Under the pieces are notes generated by a model that did not search any database, had not been told where the DNA came from, and was given only the letters and a program-made list of their open reading frames with translations. A stretch of 42,226 nt of DNA from an uncultured Eubacteriales bacterium (lineage in GTDB: Bacteria > Bacillota > Clostridia > Peptostreptococcales > Anaerovoracaceae): positions 1 through 42,226 of the forward strand of contig CACYHR010000014.1 of NCBI GenBank assembly GCA_902774265.1, in the 5' to 3' direction. The stretch's first letter is position 1; every line of letters begins with the position of its first letter. Below, one piece after another: positions 40,981 to 42,226 of the stretch. A program made the translations under genes and the position numbers.

Positions 40981-41033
40981 TCAACCAGGAGCAAAGCTCC
41001 AACAAGCTCGCTTGATTGGAGCGAGCGACGCCG
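40981..41033. repeat. 53-nt palindromic mobile repeat, copy A
   Basis: Starts TCAACCAGGAGC and ends GAGCGACGCCG. The centre folds as GCTCCAA-CAAGC-TC-GCTTG-A-TTGGAGC. It is identical in 52 of 53 positions to copy B at 42067-42119. The flanks of the two copies differ on the left. A second hairpin (CGGAGG...CCTCCG, 41041-41059) follows. It lies between the HMA protein gene and cadA, in their probable transcript. Confidence 0.88.
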
Positions 41034-41121
41034 TACTTATCGGAGGAGCTCAGCCTCCGGAGATCAATGCTTCCGAAAAACAAGCCGATGCAAATCCAGC
41101 TGTCTTCCGAACGCATATATA

Positions 41122-41753: not shown

Positions 41754-41846
41754 TTCATTAAAAGTCAAGTCAGAACACATAATTTATGTCGTTAAGCAGA
41801 TATATGATTACAATTCAGCCATCGGCCGAGCAATTACAATTTACGG

Positions 41847-42034
41847 ACTGTAAGGCAGCGACAGACAGAGAATTTGGAGGAACCGCTAAGAGTGCTGCGA
41901 GAAGGCTGCAGGCGAGCGGCTAAGGACCGGCCGCCTGAAAGCGAAGCGTCAGACTAGGTCCTCCGCGAGGCAAAGCCGACGAGCCAAGCACCCTCGGTGA
42001 CGGAAGCCTTCTCTGGATGGCACTGCCTTACAGT
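41847..42034 (+). ncRNA. Structured RNA of about 188 nt, possibly raiA-like
   Basis: A closing stem of 12 perfect pairs (ACTGTAAGGCAG at 41847-41858 with 42023-42034) encloses several long-range pairings: GGAGGA (41876-41881) with TCCTCC (41959-41964), GAGAAGGCT (41899-41907) with AGCCTTCTC (42005-42013), GTGCT (41892-41896) with AGCAC (41987-41991), and CAGGCG (41909-41914) with CGCCTG (41932-41937). CCGCT (41883-41887) with AGCGG (41915-41919) crosses the last pairing, a pseudoknot. Linkers are purine-rich on the plus strand, and a TACAAT -10 box at 41835-41840 lies seven bases before the stem. No coding sense. Features recall the clostridial raiA motif RNA; this name is a guess from memory of its style. 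RNase P, 6S, SRP and tmRNA landmarks are absent. Confidence 0.75.
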
Positions 42035-42066
42035 ATATGACTTTTGATAAGCAGAGCATTTCGCTT

Positions 42067-42119
42067 TCAACCAGGAGCAAAGATCCAACAAGCTCGCTTG
42101 ATTGGAGCGAGCGACGCCG
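42067..42119. repeat. 53-nt palindromic mobile repeat, copy B
   Basis: Same 53-nt repeat as at 40981 with one substitution, which breaks one pair in the central stem. It lies 32 bases after the structured RNA and directly before the terminal hairpins. Confidence 0.88.
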
Positions 42120-42226
42120 TCAACAGGCACCGGGAGCTTCAGCTCCTGAGAGCATCAGTGGGGGATTGTTACCCACCACTGATGGTCGAAAATGGAACCC
42201 GCCGCCTAAGAGGCGGGGGACATCCG
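42120..42226. mobile_element. Hairpin cluster resembling an IS200/IS605-type element end
   Basis: Three hairpins run to the window edge: GGAGC/GCTCC (42133-42146), CATCAGTGG/CCACTGATG with a further GGG/CCC step (42153-42184), and CCGCCT/AGGCGG (42202-42216) followed by GGGACATCCG. This GC-rich layout is like the right end and overlapping guide-type RNA of TnpB elements. No tnpA or tnpB is in the window, so it is a remnant, a non-autonomous copy, or the edge of an element beyond the window. Confidence 0.45.

Follow-up and report, generated by a model that had tools for sequence, protein, structure and literature searches.

At 41847-42034, near the end of a 42,226-nucleotide stretch of DNA from an uncultured Eubacteriales bacterium of the family Anaerovoracaceae (contig CACYHR010000014.1, referred to here over its whole length as the window), a short segment beside a metal-resistance operon raises the question of what kind of structured element it encodes. 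The initial annotation described it as a large pseudoknotted RNA preceded by a suitable -10 box, and proposed either a raiA-motif RNA or a new class. The features of this region are the following.

41808 to 41818, + strand: left end of a miniature inverted-repeat element, TTACAATTCAG
41835 to 41840: TACAAT, by guess the -10 box meant in the initial annotation
41847 to 42034, + strand: structured RNA element of 188 nt, from closing stem to closing stem
41847 to 41858, + strand: 5' arm of the closing stem, ACTGTAAGGCAG, pairing perfectly with CTGCCTTACAGT
41889 to 41896, + strand: 5' side of the central helix (helix 6), AGAGTGCT, with its partner at 41987-41994
41923 to 41928, + strand: 5' side of the inner helix (helix 10), AGGACC, with its partner GGTCCT at 41957-41962
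41937 to 41952, + strand: terminal hairpin region, where conservation in the family is highest (family sequence GCAAGCGAAGCGTCAG, here GAAAGCGAAGCGTCAG)
41957 to 41962, + strand: 3' side of the inner helix, GGTCCT
41987 to 41994, + strand: 3' side of the central helix, AGCACCCT
42023 to 42034, + strand: 3' arm of the closing stem, CTGCCTTACAGT, forming 12 bp with ACTGTAAGGCAG
42035 to 42065, + strand: right-hand flank common to some copies in the same genome

Several of the initial observations on the single copy hold. The perfect 12-bp closing stem is present as described, and no open reading frame of at least 60 aa overlaps 41847-42034, in agreement with the absence of coding sense. The minimum free energy of the + strand of this segment is -82.4 kcal/mol, compared with -66.3 +/- 4.2 for shuffled sequences (n=200, z -3.8, no shuffle as low), which bears out the claim of strong structure. 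The strand is undecidable from the single-sequence fold because the reverse strand of the window copy folds slightly better (-84.5, z -5.0). Measured against its family, the window copy is somewhat degenerate: the covariance model R1 places it at 41849-42037 with 133.4 bits, against up to 204.6 bits in other species. Its terminal hairpin region reads GAAAGCGAAGCGTCAG, leaving the 3-bp hairpin stem degenerate, and its central helix forms seven of eight pairs, with an A-C mismatch at 41891/41992; across the family, double changes are found at all eight pairs of this helix.

None of the 4227 Rfam families reaches its cut-off anywhere in the window. At E<=10, the segment 41700-42226 yields three weak matches, none of which overlaps the element and none of which is raiA, and two other members of the family, searched at E<=5, match nothing. 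The raiA model RF03072 does find a place in the same genome, G000:C6:14817-14978 (126.6 bits, cut-off 101.3), with no other place reported. The raiA identity was therefore rejected, since the element lacks an RF03072 match at E<=10, the raiA of this genome lies elsewhere, and the fold is a rod with neither a branch nor a supported pseudoknot. The proposal of a new class stands as far as Rfam goes, given the very strong covariation described below. No paper on the family was found in the literature listings searched, including for its 12-nt motif, and an unnamed earlier listing in the supplementary tables of an RNA-motif screen is possible.

The fold of the family was derived from an alignment (A1) of 37 homologues and the window, aligned by sequence alone, whose consensus contains 48 pairs, 36 of them with a kept double change. 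A later alignment comprises 76 aligned model matches from 74 distinct places, two rows repeating places in overlapping loci. In these 76 rows, 96.1% of the cells are paired, and the covariation check named in the initial annotation returns double changes at 41 of the 48 pairs, with a covariation score of 0.631 against 0.188 +/- 0.006 for shuffled and 0.065-0.102 for slid alignments; this alignment was made by fitting to the model and is biased in its favour, and the sequence-only A1 gives the same pairs. The closing stem (helix 1) is paired in 94.1% of cells, with double changes at 12 of 12 pairs, and in other species its sequence varies from locus to locus with pairing retained. Double changes also occur in every one of helices 2-10, at one or more pairs, bringing covariation to 10 of the 11 helices overall. 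The consensus fold joins 11 helical segments into a rod with no branch point, and its unpaired core is 70% purine (36% A and 33% G). Comparison among homologues shows the + strand as an unbranched rod of about 185 nt, in which the closing stem varies freely, short helices alternate with internal loops rich in purines, and the hairpin at the tip is conserved.

The pseudoknot, for which the initial annotation gave no helix coordinates, did not find support in a scan of all column pairs (54 sequences), in which nested pairs rank strongest and no stacked crossing helix occurs among the 90 top covarying column pairs listed, the few isolated crossing pairs ranking lower. Separately, columns 86/267, 57/282, and 61/282 (0-based) of alignment A2 covary strongly in a non-Watson-Crick manner and face each other across internal loops, so that they are possibly conserved non-canonical pairs.

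The family also offers a means of telling the folding strand. In 60 rows, the + strand shows 74 G:U against 31 A:C combinations, the latter being the wobbles of the other strand (9 of the 31 come from a single pair), and this excess has the same direction whether copies lie sense (16:10) or antisense (50:17). Of 21 members, 19 have a lower minimum free energy on the + strand than on the other; the window copy and one copy in G017 do not. The wobble pairs, like the base composition, indicate that the + strand is the one that folds.

Searches with R1 revealed 75 matches in 24 of 47 genomes of the same genus, with 1-12 matches per carrier and 12 in the genome of the window; many of the 23 genomes without a match are incomplete. 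At the family level, 29 of 349 genomes matched, five of them in four other (sister) genera with one match each, including a strong one in G254 (122.7 bits) and one in G274 (25.6 bits) that may be due to chance. Sampling of the order gave 15 of 393 genomes and 3 of 158 genera, all within the same family. R1 searches over more than 40 genomes, as all of these were, run under stricter filters that lose weak matches. A DNA search with 41780-42226, a query that also contains a second repeat and whose matches include diverged copies of the RNA core (~71-78% identical), matched 24 of 60 relatives, all in the same genus. Furthermore, the conserved 16-nt motif with a short tail occurs in 38 stretches of the named genome collection, 37 of which belong to assemblies with the title Mogibacterium sp. 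or (uncultured) Clostridiales bacterium, the titles of many pointing to goat or sheep gut. On these searches, few members of the family fall outside a single genus of bacteria from the ruminant gut. A motif match in Billgrantia shares the motif only and was dropped as unrelated, as was the sole match in a viral contig, which does not align beyond the motif. A phage or plasmid origin was likewise dropped, R1 matching nothing in the collections of plasmids and phages, and a search of viral contigs with the neighbouring ArsR-like protein returned nothing useful.

The genomic setting of the copies is varied. According to simple ORF calls, which disregard short overlapping ORFs and give an ORF overlapping the element in 8 of the 73 copies, 73 of the 75 copies could be placed, comprising 33 antisense and 11 sense between collinear genes (a count that includes the copies of the window's own genome), 18 between divergent genes, 9 between convergent genes, and 2 lacking one neighbour. 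The same calls often place an end of the element within 20 nt of a stop codon. Neighbouring genes recur only at orthologous sites. The position of the window copy beside the metal-resistance operon, pointed out in the initial annotation, looks coincidental because copies elsewhere flank unrelated genes. Outside the window's own genome, the + strand lies on the C-rich strand in 39 of 58 copies (GC skew negative in 39, positive in 19); strict single-strand insertion of the HUH type was rejected, the orientation being biased but not exclusive. The 15 other genomes with at least two copies contain seven pairs within 20 kb, one of them tandem, against at most 1.72 expected. Copies recur within ~20 kb of the LtaS-like and rho genes in several species (G065:C44, G017:C35, G011:C131, G016:C1, G013:C12, G030:C8, and G070:C6), a possible hotspot.

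Signals expected of an independent transcript are not evident around the copies. In the 75 nt upstream of 55 copies, a crude hexamer score for promoters is 11.75 against 12.11 after shuffling, which gives no support to the suitable -10 box of the initial annotation. Counts of -10-like hexamers 10-40 nt upstream are 34 against 18 in a control flank, with any such hexamer present in 28 against 24 of the 55 copies. The TACAAT hexamer itself sits in a flank that is common to several copies of the same genome and that was not seen in 20 aligned copies from other species. No terminator-like T/U-run follows the 3' end, the first 12 nt having T and A frequencies of 0.338 and 0.342. A general target-site duplication was not found either, the best direct repeat averaging 4.5 against 4.13 +/- 0.13 in controls, and the excess is carried by copies with repeats of 10, 13, and 20 nt, traced to a tandem pair in G020, one copy in the window's own genome, and a 10-nt repeat at gyrB-gyrA in G002, the last a candidate duplication.

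Orthologous sites, whose filled, remnant, or empty states were judged by eye and whose gene names (gyrB-gyrA, LtaS-like/rho, rnfC) were read from the sequences rather than from profile results, provide evidence of turnover. Among 30 gyrB loci, the gyrB-gyrA spacer is readable in 25; the element is present in G002 and G019, remnants occur in G016 and G020, and G018 is clean, and some other spacers contain different repeats. At LtaS-rho, G065, G006, G013, G026, and G017 carry the element in the spacer, G015 has a remnant, and the site is empty in G004 and G033; a model match also lies beside the LtaS-like gene of G016. No hairpin that could have served as a pre-existing closing stem of the target was seen by eye at the empty sites of G018 (gyrB-gyrA) or of G004 and G033 (LtaS-rho), where later loss is possible, and this origin of the closing stem was set aside. 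As a side observation, the gyrB-gyrA spacers of G003, G008, G069, and G030 carry, at the same site where other species have the RNA, another, unrelated-looking repeat of the form CTCGGGTACGGCTCTCGCCTCG...GCGGTACTAAGCTCTG...CCAATCGCTAAGTGCCGGC, with variations, and several repeat families seem to occupy the spacers of this genus.

At the rnfC locus, flanks and element are kept in three species, and the closing stem reads GGAGACAAT, GGAACCGAA, and GGGTTCGAA, each with a matching partner; the comparison of G033 with G017 there gives seven kept double changes and none broken. Altogether, 37 orthologous comparisons, which share species and hence are not independent, yielded 330 kept double changes, 68 of wobble type, and 96 broken. 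The 16 comparisons between close orthologues gave 52 kept, 25 wobble-type, and 39 broken, against an independence expectation (loop divergence 11.1%) of ~9.5 double changes of any kind, with 162 changed pairs. Broken pairs equal or exceed compensations in some comparisons, as at one locus of G015 and G017 (0 kept, 4 broken), and in the tree, loci and genomes are mixed in their relations. Site turnover, together with selection on structure in place, is shown by these comparisons.

Within the window's own genome, the element has an additional context. There are 38 DNA matches to it, window included, many of them partial, and several copies reach ends of the TTACAATTCAG / CTGAATTGTAA type. The exact 11-mer TTACAATTCAG occurs 36 times in this genome, compared with once for the pattern read backwards, and short versions without the RNA were recognised by eye (L056, 92 bp; L053, 266 bp). 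Such fixed ends were seen in this genome alone, in several copies; in other species, closing stems differ. The RNA therefore travels in this genome, at least in part, inside a miniature inverted-repeat element. Among the 36 exact matches, no two face each other at a distance of 3 kb or less, as the ends of an autonomous partner would. These sites and the loci L048, L053, and L056 make up a miniature inverted-repeat family with a variable interior. In the window copy, the expected right end of the miniature element is missing, and a second dispersed repeat (42066-42226) follows at the contig end. This repeat has ~78-98% identical matches in many genomes of the genus and a partial copy near 40982-41036, and its last ~35 nt may resemble the right end of IS200/IS605 (TnpB) elements.

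The preferred reading, to which a probability of roughly 0.55 is assigned, is that of a lineage-specific dispersed structured repeat, ERIC-like in behaviour, with the folded + strand as the selected unit. It builds on the family, its fold and folding strand, its presence or absence at orthologous sites, and the compensation in place, as these emerge from comparison, and would further have the RNA form active, self-spreading, and recognised by a protein. The element would be a small non-autonomous, ERIC-like repeat whose folded + strand, most likely as RNA, would be recognised by a trans-acting factor or protein; such recognition would be needed for spread, for a local effect on the transcripts of neighbouring genes, or for both, and selection would for that reason keep the fold. 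In the window's own genome, the miniature element with TTACAATTCAG ends may have picked up the RNA element, followed by copying many times over. Mobility is here inferred from presence/absence and copy number, because the ends are unconserved outside this genome, a general duplication is lacking, and no transposase was identified. Several points weigh against this reading: read-through from host operons would usually give the other strand, because the collinear flanks are antisense 33 to 11; the window copy folds slightly better on its - strand; broken pairs match or outnumber compensations in some comparisons; and the compensation in place is easier to reconcile with a host function than with a purely selfish element.

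The compensation in place also counts for the strongest competitor, a trans-acting noncoding RNA gene present in several independently transcribed copies per genome, which is doubtful but deserves consideration. Strong RNA-type covariation, specificity for the + strand in both orientations, and the weak upstream excess of -10-like hexamers (34 vs 18) would all suit such a gene; the combined promoter score is nevertheless not above shuffles, no T-run lies past the 3' end, 23 of the 47 same-genus genomes (many incomplete) lack a match, and copies decay. A palindromic DNA repeat without RNA function, whose arms remain complementary through template switching or gene conversion rather than selection, is unlikely. 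It would account for the rod-like near-palindrome, the amplification of the miniature element in the window's own genome, the clustering of seven pairs within 20 kb, and the mixing of loci and genomes in the tree, but would produce neither a one-strand preference for G:U over A:C (74:31) nor the retention of internal loops rich in purines and of a conserved loop in the hairpin, and the covariation extends beyond the closing stem into each of helices 2-10.

Slightly bolder, and rated a little lower as rather improbable, is a new kind of bacterial mobile element, copied by way of its folded RNA (or single-stranded DNA) rather than its linear ends. It would insert without target-site duplication, favour the C-rich strand, and exchange its closing stem freely, as a bacterial counterpart of SINEs that some machinery would mobilise. 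A cis-acting leader, riboswitch, or terminator of a neighbouring gene is highly improbable: the location of copies in spacers, often with an end close to a stop codon, would be in keeping with it, but the neighbours are unrelated with no shared set of regulated genes seen so far, the orientation is more often antisense, no U-run follows the 3' end, and the site is lost in relatives. The raiA-motif RNA, similar in size and host group, is refuted by the model searches and retains a negligible probability.

The coexistence of filled, decaying, and empty orthologous sites with compensation in place provides a good system for asking if the dispersed repeats of bacteria serve themselves, have a function, or do both. 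Among known systems, the OMEGA/HEARO RNAs of IscB/IsrB and TnpB elements are multi-copy structured RNAs near mobile DNA; unlike them, the present element has no Rfam match and no gene recurring beside its copies beyond orthologous loci. The bcr1 repeat of the Bacillus cereus group is a lineage-specific mobile repeat with conserved secondary structure that makes a target-site duplication, which was not found in general for the present element. The raiA/ModT RNA resembles it in being structured and ~200 nt long and in having a representative in the same genome, but its updated consensus is described as containing two pseudoknots, and the clostridial species studied in that account share a conserved SigA promoter (PMC11706538); neither was found here, nor does RF03072 match. 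The closest parallels are ERIC/IRU/RU-1, Correia/NEMIS, RUP, YPAL, and CIR, described as noncoding repeats of ~100-200 bp lying mostly in spacers, whose transcripts are predicted to fold into long paired stems; ERIC acts on mRNA stability, with its orientation making a difference (PMC2229807). The present element is likewise noncoding, short, multi-copy, and dispersed in spacers. According to that source, most such repeats make target-site duplications and have terminal inverted repeats, the latter less marked in CIR and YPAL (PMC2229807); as far as that description goes, the present element differs in its locus-specific closing stems, its lack of a general duplication, and its conserved interior. 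The usual bacterial miniature elements have fixed ends, whereas this RNA family, missing from Rfam, combines a conserved interior with freely replaced paired ends.
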